A DNA stretch of 38,034 nucleotides, from positions 1 through 38,034 of the forward strand of contig NZ_WNXZ01000012.1 in assembly GCF_009733845.1 (NCBI RefSeq). Direction: 5' to 3'. The first letter of the stretch is position 1. Each line of letters starts with the position of its first letter. Position numbers and translations under genes: made by a program. Positions 3,894-17,047 of this stretch are shown in pieces. This stretch comes from Pseudactinotalea terrae. Its GTDB lineage: Bacteria > Actinomycetota > Actinomycetes > Actinomycetales > Beutenbergiaceae. The notes under the pieces are model-generated. The model had not been told where the DNA came from, searched no databases, and saw only the letters and a list, made by a program, of their open reading frames with translations.

Positions 3894-4385
3894 ATGGAGA
3901 TGACGACGTACCCACTCGCCGTGCCTCCGGCGCCGCCGCCTGCACGTTCCGCAGGAGCGACCGCCGGGACCCTGTGGATCCTGCGCCTCCTCTCGGGAGT
4001 CCAGGCGGTGCTGCTGCTGGCGCAGCCGATCCTCGCAGGCCGGTTCCTCGACGGCGACTTCCCCTCGCTCTCGCAGCACGGCGCCGTCGGTCTGCTGCTC
4101 ATGGGCCTCGCATGGCTGGTCGTGATCGCTGCGGTGCTCGCCTGGCGGCCCGGGCGGCTGCCGGCGTGGCCGATCGCAGTGGCCGCGGCCTGCGCCTTCC
4201 TGCTCCCCATCCAGCTCGGCATGGGGCACGCCCGCATGCTCGCGGTGCACCTCATCCTGGGCGTCGGGCTGGTCGCGGCCGGGGTCGCCGTCGCGATCTG
4301 GGCCTGGCGGCCGGGGCGGGCGCGGCACTCGTACCGAGCGCCGAGCAACCGCGCGGTGCCCGACGGCGGGGTGCAGTACCGATGA
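3894..4385 (+). CDS. Small four-helix membrane protein upstream of multicopper oxidase
   Basis: The 163-residue protein has four hydrophobic segments (roughly residues 27-46, 65-83, 90-108 and 115-137) and a basic C-terminal tail. It belongs to no family I can name with certainty. Small membrane proteins of this type often precede multicopper oxidases or cytochrome-like genes in actinomycetes. The stop overlaps the oxidase start by ATGA, so the two are co-translated. A second in-frame ATG at 3900 is possible; neither start has a strong ribosome binding site. The gene is divergent from the two-component system and likely shares its regulatory region. Confidence 0.7.
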   Translation: MEMTTYPLAVPPAPPPARSAGATAGTLWILRLLSGVQAVLLLAQPILAGRFLDGDFPSLSQHGAVGLLLMGLAWLVVIAAVLAWRPGRLPAWPIAVAAACAFLLPIQLGMGHARMLAVHLILGVGLVAAGVAVAIWAWRPGRARHSYRAPSNRAVPDGGVQYR

Positions 4386-5857
4386 TCGCGTCACGTCGGA
4401 CCTTCCTCGGGCTGGCAGGGACGGCCGCGGCGACGGCGGTGCTCGCGGGATGTGGCGGCGGCAGCTGGTTCACTGGCAACGGGACCGGGTCCCAGGGCGC
4501 GCTGCTCGCCAGCGCGGTACCGCTCCCCGAGCCGTTCCAGGTGCCGCTGCCGATCCCGCCCACGATCGAGCCCACCAACGGGACGATCGAGCTGACGGCG
4601 CGGCGCTCCGCCGTCGAGATCCTGCCCGGCCGCACCACGGAGATCCTCGGCTACGAGGGCATCTTCCCCGGGCCTACCATCCGCGCCAGCTCGGGTGAGG
4701 AGCTTCAGGTACGGCTGCGCAACGACACCGAGATCGACACGGTCCTTCATCTTCACGGCGGCCGCACCCCCGCCGAGCACGACGGCTACCCGACCGACCT
4801 GATCGTGCCCGGTGCAGAGCGGTCGTACGTGTACCCCCTTCAGCAACGTGCCGCGCCGCTCTGGTACCACGACCACGCGATGGACTTCACGGGCCCGAAC
4901 GTGTACGCCGGGCTGGCCGGCATGGCGCTGCTCGGCTCGCAGGAGGAGGGCGCGCTCGGCCTGCCGAGCGGCGAGCGCGACGTCCCGCTCGTGATCGCCG
5001 ATCGATCCTTCGACGGCGATGCCGCCTTCGCCTACCCGCTCGCCGATCCTTCACGCGGGCGACCGGGTGTGACGATGCGCTACCACGGTGGCGTGCTGGG
5101 CGACTGCGTGCTGGTCAACGGTGCCCCGTGGCCGGTGATGGAGGTCGATGCGGCCCGGTACCGGTTCCGCATCCTCAACGCCGCCAACGCGCGGCGCTTC
5201 GACCTCACCCTGGACCAGGGTGTGACGTTCACCCAGGTGGGGACCGACGGCGGGCTGCTGGAGCGCCCGGCGGTGCGCCGCGTGATCGCGGTGGCCGGTG
5301 CCGAACGAGCCGACGTCGTCATCGACTTCTCCTCGGTGCCGGTGGGCACGCGGGTGACGATGACGAACTCGCTGGACGCGGGCGGCCCCGGCCAGGTGAT
5401 GCAGTTCCATGTGGTCCGCAAGGCGGCATCAGACGACACCCGGGTGCCGGAGCAGCTGTCCGTGATCGACGCGCTCGACCCCGGTGCGGTGAGCGTCACC
5501 CGCGACCTGCACTTCGCGCTCGGCGCCACCGGGTCCGGTCATCACGGGATGGCTGACTGGAACGTCAACGGCGTGACCTTCCACGACGGTGACGTCTTCA
5601 CCGCCCAGCGCGGCACCCTGGAACGGTGGCGGCTGAGCAGCGACGTGCACCACCCTGTCCACGCGCACCTGCTCCACTACCAGGTGGGCGCCCCGGGTGG
5701 CGACGGCCTCGCATGGAAGGACACGATCGACCTCCGGCCCGGCGGCTCCGCCGAGGTCCTGGTGCCGATCGAGGGCTACGCCGGCCGATACGTGCTGCAC
5801 TGCCACAACCTGGAGCACGAGGACATGATGATGATGGTGAACTTCAGCGTCGTGTGA
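4382..5857 (+). CDS. Multicopper oxidase, Tat-exported lipoprotein
   Basis: The 491-aa enzyme has a twin-arginine signal (RR at residues 5-6, RTFLG) and a lipobox ending at C24, so it is probably exported folded and anchored outside the membrane. All four copper-ligand clusters are visible: HLHGG (H123, H125), YHDHA (H163, H165), HPVHAH (424-429) and HCHNLEHEDM (473-482). From these the type-1 copper ligands should be H424, C474, H479 and M484. The layout is that of CotA/CueO-like laccases, which oxidise phenols or cuprous ions while reducing oxygen to water. A C-terminal run of four Met follows the last motif. Substrate is not decided by sequence; copper tolerance is one option. Confidence 0.95.
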   Translation: MIASRRTFLGLAGTAAATAVLAGCGGGSWFTGNGTGSQGALLASAVPLPEPFQVPLPIPPTIEPTNGTIELTARRSAVEILPGRTTEILGYEGIFPGPTIRASSGEELQVRLRNDTEIDTVLHLHGGRTPAEHDGYPTDLIVPGAERSYVYPLQQRAAPLWYHDHAMDFTGPNVYAGLAGMALLGSQEEGALGLPSGERDVPLVIADRSFDGDAAFAYPLADPSRGRPGVTMRYHGGVLGDCVLVNGAPWPVMEVDAARYRFRILNAANARRFDLTLDQGVTFTQVGTDGGLLERPAVRRVIAVAGAERADVVIDFSSVPVGTRVTMTNSLDAGGPGQVMQFHVVRKAASDDTRVPEQLSVIDALDPGAVSVTRDLHFALGATGSGHHGMADWNVNGVTFHDGDVFTAQRGTLERWRLSSDVHHPVHAHLLHYQVGAPGGDGLAWKDTIDLRPGGSAEVLVPIEGYAGRYVLHCHNLEHEDMMMMVNFSVV

Positions 5858-12256: not shown

Positions 12257-13402
12257 TCAGGACACGATGGCGTGCGGGTATGCCTCCGCACGGTGCTGGA
12301 AGCTCGTGATGCGGGGGTTCTGGATGACGCCGTCGCGGATCTCGATCGCGCGGCGGATCGTCTCGTCCGCGTCCCAGCCCTCCGGTCCGGCCATGACCGC
12401 CGGGAGGTACTCCAGCAACGCGTCGCTGTTCTCCCAGGTGGCCGAGCTCCAGAGGAAGGACGGGCTGTGATCCACGGCGTAGTTGTGGAGGCCGTTGCCG
12501 ACCTCGAAGATCGGGTCCGCGAAGGAGGTGGGGCGCGCCCACTCGAACCCCATCCCCTCGTCGCAGGAGACGTCGATGAAGAGCGTGCCTGGCGCGAAGT
12601 GGTGCAGGTCCTCGTTCATCACGAACATCAACGGGGCGTCGGTGTCCTGGAGGATGCAGTTGACGACGATGTCGTAGCCGGCCAGCACCTCCGCCAGCGG
12701 GCCGGGCTCGGGGTCCTTGAGCGCGAGCGTACGGCTCGGGTTCTTGGGGTCGCGGGCGAAGTGCTGCAGCACGACCGACGCGAACGGGGAGGCCACCGCC
12801 GTGGTGTGCCGCTGTGTGAGCACGGTGACGTCGCTGACACCGAGGGCGGACAACGCGCGCACCGCGCCGCGCGCCGTGGCTCCGAAGCTGATGACGGCGG
12901 CGCGGAGGCGCCTGCCGTAGTCCCCGGTCATGCCGCGCAGCCCGAGCGCGTGGAGGACCGAGGAGTACCCCGCGAGCTCGTTGTTCTTGTGGAACACGTG
13001 CAGGTTGAACGCGCCGTCCCGGGTCCAGTGGTTCATCGCCTCCCACGCGATCAGCGTGAGGCGGCGATCGATGGCCAGCTGCGTCATGCGCTCGTCCTGG
13101 ACGCAGTGCGGCCAGCCCCACAGGATCTGGCCCTCGTGCATCTCCTCGAGGTCCTCCGGCACGGGCTTGGGGAGCACGACGACGTCGGACTCCGCGACGA
13201 GCTCCGCGCGTGAACGCACGCCGCCCACCAACCGCCTGAGCTCGTCGTCGGGGACGCCGAAGCGCTCGCCGTACCCGTGCTCGAAGAAGAGCCGCGAGCG
13301 CAGCCGCTCCTCGATGCGGTCCAGGTGCGCCGGGTGGATCGCCACGCGGTGCTCGTCAGGTTTGCGGGTCGAGCCGAGGACACCAGCGGTCAGGTTTCTC
13401 AC
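12257..13402 (-). CDS. N5-(carboxyethyl)ornithine synthase-like / alanine dehydrogenase family
   Basis: The 381-aa protein belongs to the alanine dehydrogenase / transhydrogenase-alpha superfamily. Its N-terminal domain starts AGVLGSTRKPDEHRVAIHP, and the central part has AAVISFGATARGAVRALSALGV, a Rossmann dinucleotide loop. The segment WGWPHCVQDERMTQLAIDRR and the end (SFQHRAEAYPHA) match actinobacterial proteins annotated as N5-(carboxyethyl)ornithine synthase, which would reductively condense pyruvate with ornithine. That reaction was shown for lactococcal enzymes only, so the substrate here is inferred. The GTG start overlaps the stop of a four-helix membrane protein gene (GTGA) that itself follows a cupredoxin gene. 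Confidence 0.8.
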   Translation of the reverse strand: MRNLTAGVLGSTRKPDEHRVAIHPAHLDRIEERLRSRLFFEHGYGERFGVPDDELRRLVGGVRSRAELVAESDVVVLPKPVPEDLEEMHEGQILWGWPHCVQDERMTQLAIDRRLTLIAWEAMNHWTRDGAFNLHVFHKNNELAGYSSVLHALGLRGMTGDYGRRLRAAVISFGATARGAVRALSALGVSDVTVLTQRHTTAVASPFASVVLQHFARDPKNPSRTLALKDPEPGPLAEVLAGYDIVVNCILQDTDAPLMFVMNEDLHHFAPGTLFIDVSCDEGMGFEWARPTSFADPIFEVGNGLHNYAVDHSPSFLWSSATWENSDALLEYLPAVMAGPEGWDADETIRRAIEIRDGVIQNPRITSFQHRAEAYPHAIVS

Positions 13403-13848
13403 TTCGTGACTGTACGCGCCGGTCCGGCAGCGTAGGGCCGAGGCCGCGGCTGATGCCGACCGGCCCGCACCAGCGCCGCTGCCGCCAGCAGCACCGTGAG
13501 ACCCTCAGCGACAGCGCTGGCCGTCTTGGCCGGGTACCACATCGGGTCGTACATCGACGGGACGGGACCCATCGCCGGGATCTCGAACCAGGTCGATGCG
13601 AGCACCGCGACCAGCGATGCGCCGGCGACCAGGAGCGCAGCGGCGTGGGCCCACCACCGGCCGGTGACCAGCACGGCGAGCGCGACCAGCGCGGCGGCGA
13701 GCGCCTGCAGCCGGAACAGCGTCTCGCCACCGATGCCTCCGGGTGCCGCGAGCCCGATGGGCTCGGCGAGCTGCCAGTGCACGACGGCGGAGACCGCGAG
13801 ACCCGCGGTGACGCCGAGCCGCAGCAGCCCGGCTACGGGCGCGGCCAT
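13399..13848 (-). CDS. Four-helix integral membrane protein
   Basis: The 149-aa protein has four hydrophobic segments (about residues 5-25, 45-62, 68-88 and 108-128), short loops, and a basic Pro-rich tail. I do not recognise a named family. It lies between a cupredoxin lipoprotein gene (one base away) and a carboxyethylornithine-synthase-like gene (4-bp overlap), so the three are translated from one message. A role in copper or redox handling at the membrane is possible from this context but not shown. Confidence 0.75.
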   Translation of the reverse strand: MAAPVAGLLRLGVTAGLAVSAVVHWQLAEPIGLAAPGGIGGETLFRLQALAAALVALAVLVTGRWWAHAAALLVAGASLVAVLASTWFEIPAMGPVPSMYDPMWYPAKTASAVAEGLTVLLAAAALVRAGRHQPRPRPYAAGPARTVTK

Positions 13849-13849
13849 C

Positions 13850-14212
13850 TCAACCGACCACCAGGGTGGCGGTCATCTGGGGGTGCGGGATGCAGTGGAA
13901 CGGATACTCCCCCGGCTCGTCCGGGGCGGTGAACGTGACCTCCTCGCCGGGTCCGACGGCCACGTCGAACCCGCCGGCCTCGTCCGCGGTCACGGTGTGC
14001 CCGACGTTGTCCTCGTTCCGCACGGTCACGGTCGCCCCGGCCGGCACCTCCTCCGGGACGTGGAACGTGAAGTCGGAGATCACGATGGTGAGCGGTGCCG
14101 CGCCGGGGTCGGTCGACGCCTCGTCAGCGCCGTTCGAGGTGCAGGCCGCGAGCAGGAGCAGCAGCGCGGCGAGCAGCGAGGCCGGCGCGAGCGTCGAACG
14201 ATGGCGATCCAT
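13850..14212 (-). CDS. Cupredoxin-domain lipoprotein
   Basis: The 120-aa exported protein has a short basic N-terminus, a hydrophobic stretch and a lipobox LAAC (C24), so it should be lipid-anchored outside the membrane. Residues 40-120 form a plastocyanin-like beta-barrel. Type-1 copper ligands are visible: H72 in VGHTVT, C107 and H110 in HCIPHPQM, and M113. It probably carries electrons or binds copper. The ATG at 14212 is preferred over a longer frame from 14260, because a CAATC-N18-CGTA promoter element ends nine bases before it, the same spacing as at the sigma-factor gene. Confidence 0.9.
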   Translation of the reverse strand: MDRHRSTLAPASLLAALLLLLAACTSNGADEASTDPGAAPLTIVISDFTFHVPEEVPAGATVTVRNEDNVGHTVTADEAGGFDVAVGPGEEVTFTAPDEPGEYPFHCIPHPQMTATLVVG

Positions 14213-14221
14213 GCCCGGTGG

Positions 14222-14248
14222 TACGTGCCGAGGCGGGCGCGGAGATTG
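14222..14248 (-). promoter_or_regulatory. ECF-type promoter element CAATC-N18-CGTA, upstream of cupredoxin operon
   Basis: On the minus strand CAATC (14248-14244) and CGTA (14225-14222) are separated by exactly 18 bases. CGTACC lies nine bases from the ATG counted from CGTA. The same element and spacing occur upstream of the sigma gene and the COG4315 lipoprotein gene. Recognition by the local ECF sigma factor is inferred. Confidence 0.65.
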
Positions 14249-14272
14249 CCCCGGCCGCAAGGTCGCACCCGG

Positions 14273-14959
14273 TCAGAGCCGGGCGGCCGACCAGACGCGC
14301 TCGTCGGGCGTGATCAGCTGGACCTCGACGACCTCGCCGTCGACGGCGTCGATCACCCAGCTGTTCGGCCTGTCGTCGGCCAGCGACCACTCGGCGACAT
14401 CCTGGGTGCTGCCGTCGGCAAGCACCAGCCGGCAGGTGTACCGCTGCCCGGCCGGGCCGTCGGTCACCTCGAGCACCAGCACCGGACCGTCAGCGCCGTA
14501 GCTGGTCGAGACACGGCCGACCTCCTGACCGTCGGCCGTGACCAGCGCCGTCTGCCACTGCTCGGTGACGCTCGGCGGTGGCACCTCCGCGTCGCCACCG
14601 GGCCACCAGCTGATCGCTCCCGCGCCGATGGCCATCCCGGCCAGGGCCGCAGCGGCAGGCAGCAGCCAACGGCGTGGCCGCCTCGGCTCGGCGACGGAGA
14701 CGGCGGCGTGGCGCTCGGTCGCGGGACCCGCGGCGGCCCGCTGGAGCCGGTCCAGCACCCGCACCTGGAAGTCGGCGGGCGGCGCGGTCCGCGGGGCAGC
14801 GGGAAGCACCAGCGCCACCGAGGCCGCGTACTCGTCGTAGTCGCGTCGGCACGCGGTGCAGGCGGCCAGGTGCTCGGTCAGCCGCTCCTGGTCGCCGTCG
14901 ACAAGCCCGAGCGCGAGCGCCACGAGGTCGTCGGTGTCGGGGTGCGCGGCGTCAGTCAT
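14273..14959 (-). CDS. Anti-sigma factor (zinc-finger, RskA-like)
   Basis: The 228-aa protein has an N-terminal anti-sigma domain with the zinc motif H30-x3-C34-x2-C37 (HLAACTAC). One transmembrane helix follows (about residues 97-118). The outer domain ends VITPDERVWSAARL-like, with the two-strand pattern WQTALVTADGQEVGRV and GQRYTCRLVLADGS seen in RskA-type anti-sigma factors. It should hold the ECF sigma factor at the membrane until an outside signal releases it. Its start overlaps the sigma stop by 8 bp (ATGACTGA), giving coupled synthesis. It ends 60 bp before the cupredoxin start, so the cupredoxin genes follow in the same orientation but have their own promoter element. Confidence 0.9.
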   Translation of the reverse strand: MTDAAHPDTDDLVALALGLVDGDQERLTEHLAACTACRRDYDEYAASVALVLPAAPRTAPPADFQVRVLDRLQRAAAGPATERHAAVSVAEPRRPRRWLLPAAAALAGMAIGAGAISWWPGGDAEVPPPSVTEQWQTALVTADGQEVGRVSTSYGADGPVLVLEVTDGPAGQRYTCRLVLADGSTQDVAEWSLADDRPNSWVIDAVDGEVVEVQLITPDERVWSAARL

Positions 14960-15530
14960 GGCTCACCTCCGCCTCCGTGCGCAGGCGTCGCAGCCCGTCC
15001 CGGATACGCGTCTTCGCCGTGCCGAGCGGGATGCCTTCCCGATCAGCGACCTCGGCCGCGGTGCAGCCGCCCAGCACGGCGAGCACCACCGCGCGCGCCT
15101 GGACCGGGGACAGCCTGTGCAGGTGCGCGATCGCGCGGTCGGTCTCGACGCGGTGCAGCGCCGTCTCCTCGGGGTCCTCGGTCGGCGCCCCGGCGTCGCG
15201 GAGCAGCTGGTCGAGAGCCTCGGTGTCGGCAGGCGCGGGGCGGCGCGCCCGGATCGCGTCGATGGCGGCGTTCCGGGTGATCGTAAGCAACCAGGTCAGC
15301 ACCGACGCACGGCGGATGTCGTAGCTGGCCGCAGCACCCCAGGCACGCACGAACACCTCCTGACTCACATCCTCGGCCAAGCCGGCGTCGCGCGTGATGC
15401 TGACCGCCATCCCGTACACCGCCCGCTGGAACCGACGCACGAACGCGACCGAGACCTCGGCGTCGTCGAGCGCCAGACCCGCGAGCAGGGCAGCATCGCC
15501 TGCGCGATCGGCGCGCGAGAACACTGCCAT
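14952..15530 (-). CDS. ECF RNA polymerase sigma factor (SigK-like)
   Basis: The 192-aa protein has sigma region 2 (about residues 25-95: AFVRRFQRAVYGMAV, AEDVSQEVFVRAW, the -10 reading helix with TWLLTITRNAAIDAIR) and sigma region 4 (about 135-185: LSPVQARAVVLAVLGGCTAAEVADREGIPLGTAKTRIRDGLRRLR). The combination with an RskA-like anti-sigma resembles the SigK group, but group assignment needs alignment. It is preceded by CAATC-N18-CGTA, which would make the operon self-activating. The ATG at 15530 follows GTGAGGT and lies nine bases after CGTA, so the message may have almost no leader. Confidence 0.93.
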   Translation of the reverse strand: MAVFSRADRAGDAALLAGLALDDAEVSVAFVRRFQRAVYGMAVSITRDAGLAEDVSQEVFVRAWGAAASYDIRRASVLTWLLTITRNAAIDAIRARRPAPADTEALDQLLRDAGAPTEDPEETALHRVETDRAIAHLHRLSPVQARAVVLAVLGGCTAAEVADREGIPLGTAKTRIRDGLRRLRTEAEVSHD

Positions 15531-15539
15531 ACCTCACGG

Positions 15540-15566
15540 TACGAGCGTGCTGCCCCCAAGGGATTG
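15540..15566 (-). promoter_or_regulatory. ECF-type promoter element CAATC-N18-CGTA, upstream of sigma/anti-sigma operon
   Basis: CAATC (15566-15562) and CGTA (15543-15540) on the minus strand have an 18-base spacer. The ATG of the sigma gene is nine bases further. This is the likely autoregulatory promoter. Confidence 0.65.
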
Positions 15567-15591
15567 CTTCGGCACCGCTTTCGCGTGCACC

Positions 15592-15618
15592 CAATCTCGC
15601 CACCGTGGTCGCGGCGTA
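15592..15618 (+). promoter_or_regulatory. ECF-type promoter element CAATC-N18-CGTA, upstream of COG4315 lipoprotein
   Basis: CAATC (15592-15596) and CGTA (15615-15618) with an 18-base spacer, on the opposite strand from, and next to, the sigma promoter element. It would give a leader of about 50 bases. Confidence 0.62.
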
Positions 15619-15677
15619 TCACCAGGAGCACGACGCGCGGCGGGAGGCCCGCCGTCGGCGATGAGATGGAGACGCAG

Positions 15678-16208
15678 ATGCGACGCATGAAGACAGCGGC
15701 ACTCGTCCTGGTCCTGGGCTTCGGCCTGGCTGCCTGCGGAAGCGGCGGCGCGGGCGACGAGCCCCCCGACTCGGCCCCTGCCGGGGAGGAGAGCAGCGAC
15801 ATGGCGGAGGAGACCACGGACTCCGCACCGGGCGAGGCGACCATGCTCGGGGTGGCGAGCTCCGACGTCGGCGACATCGTGGTCGACGGCACCGGCATGA
15901 CGCTGTACATGTTCACCCAGGACAGCGAGGGCATGAGTGCCTGCAGCGGCGACTGCCTCGCGGCGTGGCCGCCGTTGGAGGGCGAGCCGAGCGCGGGTGA
16001 GGGCGTCGACGAGTCGTTGCTCGGCAGCATCGAGCGCGACGACGGGTCCACCCAGGCCACGTACGGCGGCTGGCCGTTGTACTACTTCGCGCAGGACGCT
16101 CAGCCCGGCGACCTGACGGGACAGGGCGTCAACGAGGTCTGGTACGCGCTCTCCCCGGCGGGTGAGCCGATCATGGAGGCGGCGCCAGCGGACGCGTCCG
16201 GCTACTGA
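15678..16208 (+). CDS. Secreted COG4315 lipoprotein (Yx(F/W/Y)xxD repeats)
   Basis: The 176-aa protein has a lipoprotein signal (LAAC, C20), an acidic Ser/Pro/Glu linker (about residues 21-55) and two copies of the COG4315 motif: TLYMFTQDSEGMSACSGDC with the following WPPL, and PLYYFAQDAQPGD with a following VNEVWYALSP. The Cys pair in the first copy is probably disulfide-linked. The family is exported and of unknown biochemical role, though it often accompanies ECF systems and redox or copper proteins. ATG 15678 has GGAG seven bases upstream; ATG 15666 and 15687 are alternatives. It is divergent from the sigma operon and carries the same promoter element. Its 3' end overlaps a convergent gene. 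Confidence 0.88.
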   Translation: MRRMKTAALVLVLGFGLAACGSGGAGDEPPDSAPAGEESSDMAEETTDSAPGEATMLGVASSDVGDIVVDGTGMTLYMFTQDSEGMSACSGDCLAAWPPLEGEPSAGEGVDESLLGSIERDDGSTQATYGGWPLYYFAQDAQPGDLTGQGVNEVWYALSPAGEPIMEAAPADASGY

Positions 16209-16719
16209 TGGGCGCTGCTCGGTGCGGGCGACCCGTACCGAGCCGGTCGAGGACGGCGAGGTCGTGGAGGTCGACCTCCCGGTGCGCGTAGCCGCTGCGC
16301 AGGGAACGGAGCCTGGCGGCCGACGCGACGACGACCTCGCGACCGCCGATCGTCCCCACCACGCGATCGGCCGCTGCATGGACGAAGACCTGCTCGCCCG
16401 GTCCCTGCTGCACGCCGTCGCCGTTGCGCTGGATGACCATGGGGTGGACGTCCACGCGTCCGGTGGCCGATGTCAGCTCCACCCGGATCGGTCGCCAGTC
16501 CTCGACGATCGCGTACCCGCGCTCACCCAGCCAGGCCAGCAGCCGTGGTGCGGCCGCAGCGTCGACGAAGACATCGAGATCGCGGTGAGCGCGCGTCTGC
16601 GCACCCGCGAGCGCGTCGACCGCCCAGCCGCCGTTGACCTGATAGGTGAGCCCGGCCTGCTCGAGCCAGTCCACGATCAGGGCGACCTCCTGGGCCGAGG
16701 TGTAGCACGCTGCCTCCAT
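16171..16719 (-). CDS. Nucleotidyltransferase, aminoglycoside/lincosamide ANT-like
   Basis: The 182-aa protein has the minimal nucleotidyltransferase signature NGGWAVDALAGAQTRAHRDLDVFV (GGW start, then the D-x-D metal pair) and a later strand with a third acidic residue (GRVDVHPM). This matches the LinA/ANT(2'')-like domain family. Some members adenylylate antibiotics, many chromosomal ones have unknown substrates, so resistance must not be assumed. It is convergent with, and overlaps by 38 bp, the COG4315 lipoprotein gene. The C-terminal Arg/Pro-rich tail lies in that overlap. Confidence 0.82.
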   Translation of the reverse strand: MEAACYTSAQEVALIVDWLEQAGLTYQVNGGWAVDALAGAQTRAHRDLDVFVDAAAAPRLLAWLGERGYAIVEDWRPIRVELTSATGRVDVHPMVIQRNGDGVQQGPGEQVFVHAAADRVVGTIGGREVVVASAARLRSLRSGYAHREVDLHDLAVLDRLGTGRPHRAAPISSRTRPLAPPP

Positions 16720-16748: not shown

Positions 16749-16970
16749 ATGCCGCACCACACCGACATCGCGATCCGCGACGAGTCCATCCGCCTCGGCC
16801 AGCTCCTCAAGCTGGCCGGCCTCGTCGACGACGGCGGGCTCGCTCGCCTGGTCATCGCGAACGGCGAGGTGAGGGTCGACGGCGAGGTCGAGACCCGCCG
16901 CGGCGCGCAGATCCGTGTGGGTCAGGTCGTGCAGTACGCGGATCAGACGGTGCGCATCACCGCGCAGTAG
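16749..16970 (+). CDS. S4-domain RNA-binding protein (YbcJ/YaaA type)
   Basis: The 73-aa protein is a single S4 domain: SIRLGQLLKLAGLVDDGGLARLVIANGEVRVDGEVETRRGAQIRVGQVV, the alpha-L motif seen in ribosomal protein S4 and small free-standing S4 proteins. It should bind structured RNA; a ribosome-linked role is known only for some relatives. ATG 16749 is used. GTG 16740 is also in frame but lacks a site. No ribosome binding site is evident. TACAGT (16736-16741) at the right distance suggests a leaderless transcript, without a clear -35. Confidence 0.85.
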   Translation: MPHHTDIAIRDESIRLGQLLKLAGLVDDGGLARLVIANGEVRVDGEVETRRGAQIRVGQVVQYADQTVRITAQ

Positions 16971-17047
16971 ACCGAGCGCGACGAGCAACGACTGCCGACC
17001 CGTACCCTCGAGCGCGTGAGCGGGTGGCGGTCCGGAGGGTGCACGAT

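Follow-up and report, generated by a model that had tools for sequence, protein, structure and literature searches.

The described systems closest to the locus analyzed here are SigK/RskA of Mycobacterium tuberculosis and its relatives, sigma-U/RsuA of Streptomyces coelicolor, and a set of ECF systems that respond to HOCl or metals. Excerpts from one account assign SigK/RskA and related pairs to ECF18/ECF19 and describe SigK of M. tuberculosis as autoregulated, with the antigenic MPT70 and MPT83 among its targets (PMC7509140). For sigma-U, passages of the published work list the lipoprotein gene SCO0930 as part of the regulon (PMC6295645). The HOCl- or metal-responsive systems, again as given in portions of their reports, are RpoE2 of Haemophilus influenzae (PMC7907618), sigma-F of Caulobacter (PMC3511200), and BcrS of Brucella (PMC8315932).

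We analyzed a window of 38,034 nt, the whole stretch of DNA under study, from the genome of Pseudactinotalea terrae (here, the host). Our main reading, to which we assign a probability of roughly 85%, is that a SigK-like, autoregulated ECF sigma factor, paired with a membrane-bound zinc-type anti-sigma factor, drives three units through copies of one promoter element: its own operon, a cupredoxin operon, and the gene of a COG4315 lipoprotein. Among the open-access papers that our searches listed, none concerned a CAATC-N17/18-CGTA regulon, and the term COG4315 had zero occurrences in the papers searched for it.

The promoter element in the window and the host genome

In the window, a pattern search of both strands gives CAATC-N18-CGTA at three places and no others. 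One is the putative promoter of the sigma/anti-sigma operon (15540..15566, minus strand); the others precede the divergent COG4315 lipoprotein gene (15592..15622, plus strand; core, 15592-15618) and the cupredoxin operon (14218..14248, minus strand; core, 14222-14248). The original prediction described the three elements as identical, which is true of the two boxes and their spacing but not of what follows, as CGTA is followed by NN-AC in the cupredoxin and COG4315 copies but not in the sigma copy. Its placing of CGTA nine bases before the start codon at two of the three genes was borne out, with 9 nt separating the end of CGTA from the ATG of both the sigma gene (15530) and the cupredoxin gene (14212). 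The leader is longer at the COG4315 gene, with 59 nt from CGTA to the ATG at 15678 and 47 nt to an in-frame ATG upstream.

A genome-wide search, which the original prediction had proposed as a check, found the element to be rare in the host, with five CAATC-N18-CGTA matches in 4.76 Mb, three of them at this locus, and two matches to a reversed-pattern control. Relaxing the gap to N16-N19 added three sites, all of them N16, and none with N17 or N19. Within the window, dinucleotide shuffles gave an expectation of 0.05 matches and reached three in 0 of 100 trials, and the Poisson probability of three sites within 1397 bp is ~3e-11 with the two other host sites as background, or 5e-10 when all five host sites serve as background.

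The extended form, CAATC-N17/18-CGTA-NN-AC, occurs at exactly two places in the host genome, both inside the window. Allowing one mismatch added four host sites beyond these two, compared with seven in the control, which is no excess. The two remaining exact N18 sites (L004 and L005) have no AC after CGTA; these and the three N16 sites (L116-L118) were looked at with codon statistics and are not claimed as targets. As no further convincing target emerged in the host, the regulon may consist of just the three promoters in the window.

Promoter conservation and two promoter sub-classes

Relatives of the sigma factor were gathered by protein similarity and not by the DNA motif, and the best 80 of 85 loci were kept; because they were located by short peptide patterns, the set is not exhaustive. 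In every one of the 41 close orthologous loci (L006-L046; at least 59% identity; 11 named genera and metagenome bins), the sigma gene is directly preceded by an exact CAATC-N17/18-CGTA, although these loci are not independent of one another, 15 being from Streptomyces. More distant sigma loci (L047-L058) have an exact site in 3 of 12 cases and lack it in 9, and the site was found within 250 nt of none of the 27 remote ECF genes (L059-L085). Altogether 49 sigma sites were available, 48 matched by script and one, L087, labeled anti-sigma by the script and reassigned by hand. The spacer measures 17 nt in 43 of them; the 6 with a spacer of 18 are those of the window, its family members L006, L087, L091, and L092, and one Ornithinimicrobium locus, L007. 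The exact spacing of 18 bases that had been proposed is therefore right for the three copies in the window, while 17 is usual among relatives.

The distance to the start codon is similarly constrained. Of the 49 sigma sites, 45 have an in-frame start codon exactly 9 nt downstream of CGTA, and six Streptomyces loci among these have a further in-frame ATG 3 nt past it. At cupredoxin sites, the start codon is 8 or 9 nt past CGTA in 8 of 10, and script-assigned distances for COG4315 genes span 6 to 82. If transcription began at the position usual for ECF transcripts, so short and constant a distance would leave no room for a ribosome-binding site, which suggests leaderless or near-leaderless messages for the sigma and cupredoxin genes.

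To describe the output promoters, we scanned 64 sources, namely the window, L006-L058, and ten others, six of which were chosen for bearing a site. The scan returned 101 sites: 48 at sigma genes, 30 at COG4315 genes, 10 at cupredoxin genes, 1 at an anti-sigma gene (the one relabeled as sigma), and 12 with no match to a window protein. AC stands at bases 3-4 after CGTA in 29 of 30 COG4315 promoters and all 10 cupredoxin promoters but in only 5 of 49 sigma promoters, and it is present in half (6/12) of the sites that lack a window-protein match. For 39 of 40 outputs versus 5 of 49 sigma promoters, Fisher's P is 1.5e-18, a value uncorrected for the kinship of these related sequences. AC lay outside the search pattern. 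In L010 and L015, where an exact divergent site is missing, CCATC-N17-CGTA-NN-AC is found in its place. What is new here is that the promoters fall into two sub-classes, with output promoters bearing the extra CGTA-NN-AC and sigma promoters mostly lacking it.

Across whole genomes, the extended element goes with the sigma gene. Among 39 genomes, the host and its relatives, it occurs in all nine that carry the sigma gene (the host's own included) and in 5 of the 30 that do not, one match in each, which is chance level; the reversed control gave 7 over all 39. Extended sites number 16 in the nine sigma-bearing genomes and belong to the sigma locus; in G003, one lies ~2.5 kb from the others. In a set of 40 genomes, 39 have at least one extended match, compared with 6 matches in all for the reversed control; many of these are located away from the sigma locus, which in at least five genomes (G044, G047, G049, G053, and G074) carries no extended element. 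The pattern CAATCCCT-N14/15-CGTA gave 42 matches over 24 of 36 sigma-bearing genomes and 0 for its reversed control, with 9 of the 42 accounted for by one unexplained Streptomyces sequence. This identical 26-base CAATCCCT-N14-CGTA occupies a distal position in each of nine Streptomyces genomes and is not claimed as a target; one copy (L190, G060:C5) lies upstream of a frame that by eye is PhoX-like.

COG4315 and cupredoxin genes carry the promoter in several genera, and the output genes of relatives suggest that other redox-type proteins are swapped in. Ruania (L006 and L008) and Ornithinimicrobium (L007, L012, and L016) have a third site beyond the anti-sigma gene, where a cupredoxin operon follows. 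In Nesterenkonia, the third site instead precedes a unit made up of a small membrane protein and then a lipoprotein (6233-7105 in L036; from 6227 in L043); the L036 lipoprotein has a cytochrome b5 domain (68.5 bits). In L018, a cupredoxin replaces COG4315 under the divergent promoter. Farther afield, 4 of 14 distal sites picked by hand (L148-L152, L154, and L185-L192) precede fitting genes, encoding DoxX (L185), CHRD (L188), and YceI (L148, 1636-2365, assigned by Pfam, and L149, by likeness). Both YceI sites are of the form CAATCCCT-N15-CGTA without AC and lie far from the sigma locus. The L189 site has AC but is followed by a frame read by eye as glycosyltransferase-like, and the nine remaining picks have no fitting gene. 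A protein after a site in L032, CHRD-like by eye with no Pfam match, was left uncounted.

Proteins encoded at the locus

The sigma factor (192 aa; 14952..15530, minus strand) has regions 2 and 4 only, matching Pfam Sigma70_r2 (68 bits) and the Sigma70_r4 family (Sigma70_r4_2, 36 bits) above cut-off. Its gene overlaps the anti-sigma gene by 8 bp (14952-14959), and the promoter is common to the operon; a short two-region protein with an anti-sigma partner and a promoter at the operon is what places it with the ECF (group 4) factors. SigK is its closest solved structure (4NQW; E, 9e-20). However, the protein differs from SigK in lacking both regulatory cysteines, with His136 and Glu186 aligned to C133 and C183 of 4NQW, and its score of 129.7 bits against the NCBIfam SigK model does not reach the cut-off of 226.

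The anti-sigma factor (228 aa; 14273..14959, minus strand) combines a zinc-type inner domain (HxxxCxxC), one predicted membrane helix, and an outer beta-sandwich with Cys176. The motif residues H30, C34, and C37 are invariant in 38 of 38 aligned proteins, an invariance partly built in because relatives were first picked with the motif as a guide. The alignment holds 37 of 43 relatives and the window protein and leaves out four that resemble rows kept (L027, L031, L040, and L058) and two, L019 and L045, that look frame broken. In the latter two, both Streptomyces records, the broken frames may reflect sequencing error or real loss. By its inner-domain motif the protein would be a class I zinc-type (ZAS) anti-sigma factor, predicted to inhibit the sigma factor, and its profile matches RsiW (2.5e-7) and ChrR. 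Cys176 is present in 33 of 38 aligned sequences, the five without it being among the most distant. The structural model (mean pLDDT, 82.6) has inner helices, then a helix at 100-117 (pLDDT about 50-62) that we read as the probable membrane span, then the beta-sandwich at 136-227 (pLDDT mostly above 90). The protein has no Pfam match at E 0.01 and hence none to the RskA outer domain. Fold searches with the anti-sigma and COG4315 models returned no solved structure at E 0.001, and a weak resemblance (E, 0.007) of the former to the sandwiches of Cu,Zn superoxide dismutase was set aside.

Of the outputs, the cupredoxin (120 aa; 13850..14212, minus strand) matches Pfam Cupredoxin_1 at 44.8 bits (cut-off, 27) and has an apparent lipobox cysteine, read by eye. 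Comparison with PDB entries aligns its GHTVT and FHCIPHPQM with copper nitrite reductase, the His and the Cys-His-Met region being present, so that it fits a type 1 copper protein and is predicted to bind copper. A small membrane protein of the same operon (149 aa; 13399..13848, minus strand) has no Pfam or NCBIfam match and is kept beside the cupredoxin in relatives. The COG4315-type lipoprotein (15678..16208, plus strand) owes its label to the earlier reader and was placed here through Pfam Lipoprotein_15 (106 bits; cut-off, 24.4). Its lipobox cysteine does not vary among the 24 proteins aligned (the window protein and 23 of 29 relatives, leaving out L021, L031, L038, L041, L044, and L045), and it has CxxxC and two Yx(F/W/Y)xxD motifs, found in 29 of 29 relatives. 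In the L021 protein (4011-4862, minus strand), the CxxxC/Yx(F/W/Y)xxD unit is duplicated. The end of the COG4315 gene is overlapped, tail to tail, by a nucleotidyltransferase-like gene (16171-16719, minus strand; Pfam Aminoglyc_resit, 118 bits), whose nearest NCBIfam models are lincosamide nucleotidyltransferases, below their cut-offs.

Limits of the regulon, proposed mechanism, and known systems

How far the regulon extends downstream was part of the original prediction, which tied copper/redox surface proteins and an amino-acid-like enzyme to one signal. The first part is supported for the COG4315 and cupredoxin units and the sigma operon, given the site at 41/41 sigma orthologues, outputs in several genera, and an extended element at background where the sigma gene is missing. 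The second concerns P0005 (12257..13402, minus strand), named carboxyethylornithine-synthase-like in that prediction, an alanine dehydrogenase/PNT-like enzyme whose only domain matches are of that type and whose nearest model is alaDH, at 67 bits against a cut-off of 392. If the whole minus-strand group formed one regulon, amino acid chemistry would join the signal, and the 4-nt overlap of the enzyme gene with the membrane-protein gene makes read-through plausible in this genome. Against such an extension, tblastn found no enzyme homologue in 62 loci (nine of which, L086-L094, the window's own included, are too short, and some others short), among them all five long loci with a cupredoxin operon (L006, L007, L008, L012, and L016). 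In six of six other genomes with both genes, they are not adjacent: the enzyme gene is ~1 Mb or more from the cassette in G008, G019, G021, and G022 and on another contig in G003 (a fragmented assembly) and G016. The same-genus genome G001 has an 86% identical enzyme with no sigma cassette beside it and is without a close sigma orthologue. The enzyme is thus not a conserved member of the cassette, with read-through possible in this strain, and we consider its inclusion in the regulon improbable.

Other readings concern the element itself, and each seems to us still less probable. It might be read by another host sigma factor, the local one being a co-target and not the reader; the host carries a second related ECF gene (35% identity; G000:C7), and actinobacteria have many ECF factors. 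This reading, which we judge quite unlikely, sits poorly with the background level of the extended element in sigma-less relatives, several of which have related paralogues, and with a site that stays with the sigma gene in 41/41 loci. That a DNA-binding regulator uses the element as its operator strikes us as very improbable: although sequence alone cannot distinguish between protein readers, two asymmetric boxes at 17/18-nt spacing, in fixed orientation and at a near-constant distance from the sigma start codon, look like a -35/-10 pair. Short boxes with 9 fixed bases could also recur by chance or through base composition, which the original prediction had deemed unlikely and which the shuffles (0/100), the Poisson value (~3e-11), and conservation in 41/41 orthologues refute on these data.

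The limits of the cassette can be drawn from nucleotide similarity. G022 and Ruania albidiflava (L006) resemble the window from 13467/13502 to ~16215, interrupted near the divergent promoters, and the part in common encodes the membrane protein, cupredoxin, anti-sigma factor, sigma factor, and COG4315 lipoprotein. G001 matches the window up to 13416 and resumes at 17033; a block at 16760-16931 also matches, shifted by one gene, and the intervening ~2.9 kb is different sequence. Together these matches make the left edge sharp (13417-13467) and the right edge less so. On our main reading, the ECF cassette is a self-contained unit of ~2.8 kb, at roughly 13.42-16.21 kb.

Returning to an autoregulated sigma factor as the reader of the element, the system may work as follows. 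At rest, the membrane anti-sigma factor would hold the sigma factor through its zinc-type (HxxxCxxC) inner domain. An outside signal, probably related to redox state or copper, would be sensed by the outer beta-sandwich with Cys176 and would free the sigma factor, which with RNA polymerase would start transcription at CAATC-N17/18-CGTA promoters. Its targets would be its own operon, as feedback, the COG4315 lipoprotein, and the cupredoxin/membrane-protein operon. The extra CGTA-NN-AC, usually missing from the autoregulatory promoter, probably gives the output promoters a different strength.

We offer a broader view tentatively, holding it possible at somewhat less than even odds. The locus may represent a widespread, undescribed actinobacterial ECF regulon for electron carriers outside the membrane, in which one promoter code, CAATC-N17/18-CGTA, is combined with lineage-specific redox-type proteins (blue copper protein, cytochrome b5-domain lipoprotein, COG4315 lipoprotein, DoxX, YceI, and CHRD). 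Two promoter classes, CGTA-NN-AC at outputs and a sigma start codon 9 nt past CGTA, would provide differential gain via leaderless messages; one conserved cysteine would let the anti-sigma factor read the outside redox or copper state, and COG4315 proteins would be redox or metal carriers. The Pfam family of the latter is still named "Secreted repeat of unknown function," and the locus supplies a testable context and inducer class for these lipoproteins. The promoter code can be used to seek new members across actinobacterial genomes. Sigma and output promoters, split as they are, form a natural set for studying the role of the bases that follow the -10 box of an ECF promoter, and the constant spacing of 9 nt lends itself to tests of leaderless translation.

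Comparison with described systems sets these features in context. The likeness to SigK/RskA lies in the closest solved sigma structure and in the pairing of sigma and anti-sigma factors; it is drawn from proteins and not from promoters, the passages of the SigK literature at hand containing no SigK consensus, and the anti-sigma factor differs from RskA in having no Pfam match at all. The likeness to sigma-U was drawn from regulon content, and the COG4315 lipoprotein (P0006) matches the SCO0930 lipoprotein model below cut-off (134 versus 275 bits). The sigma-U locus is presumably distinct from the Streptomyces loci of this analysis. RpoE2, sigma-F, and BcrS, as far as the available passages describe them, resemble this locus in their small regulons with envelope redox genes, with DoxX genes in the H. 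influenzae and Caulobacter systems. They differ from it in the methionine-sulfoxide repair genes of Brucella and H. influenzae, and those passages contain no COG4315 protein or cupredoxin. In the same passages, Caulobacter sigma-F and Brucella BcrS have similar -35/-10 copies at the sigma and target operons, as here, but their boxes are of the GTAAC/CGAA type, unlike CAATC/CGTA, and the Brucella anti-sigma factor (six-helix DUF1109) and that of H. influenzae (a 67-aa cytoplasmic protein) are unlike the zinc-type protein of this locus. Known ECF systems already place similar promoter copies before both the sigma gene and envelope redox genes, and the locus described here is, on this comparison, one with its own boxes and its own outputs.
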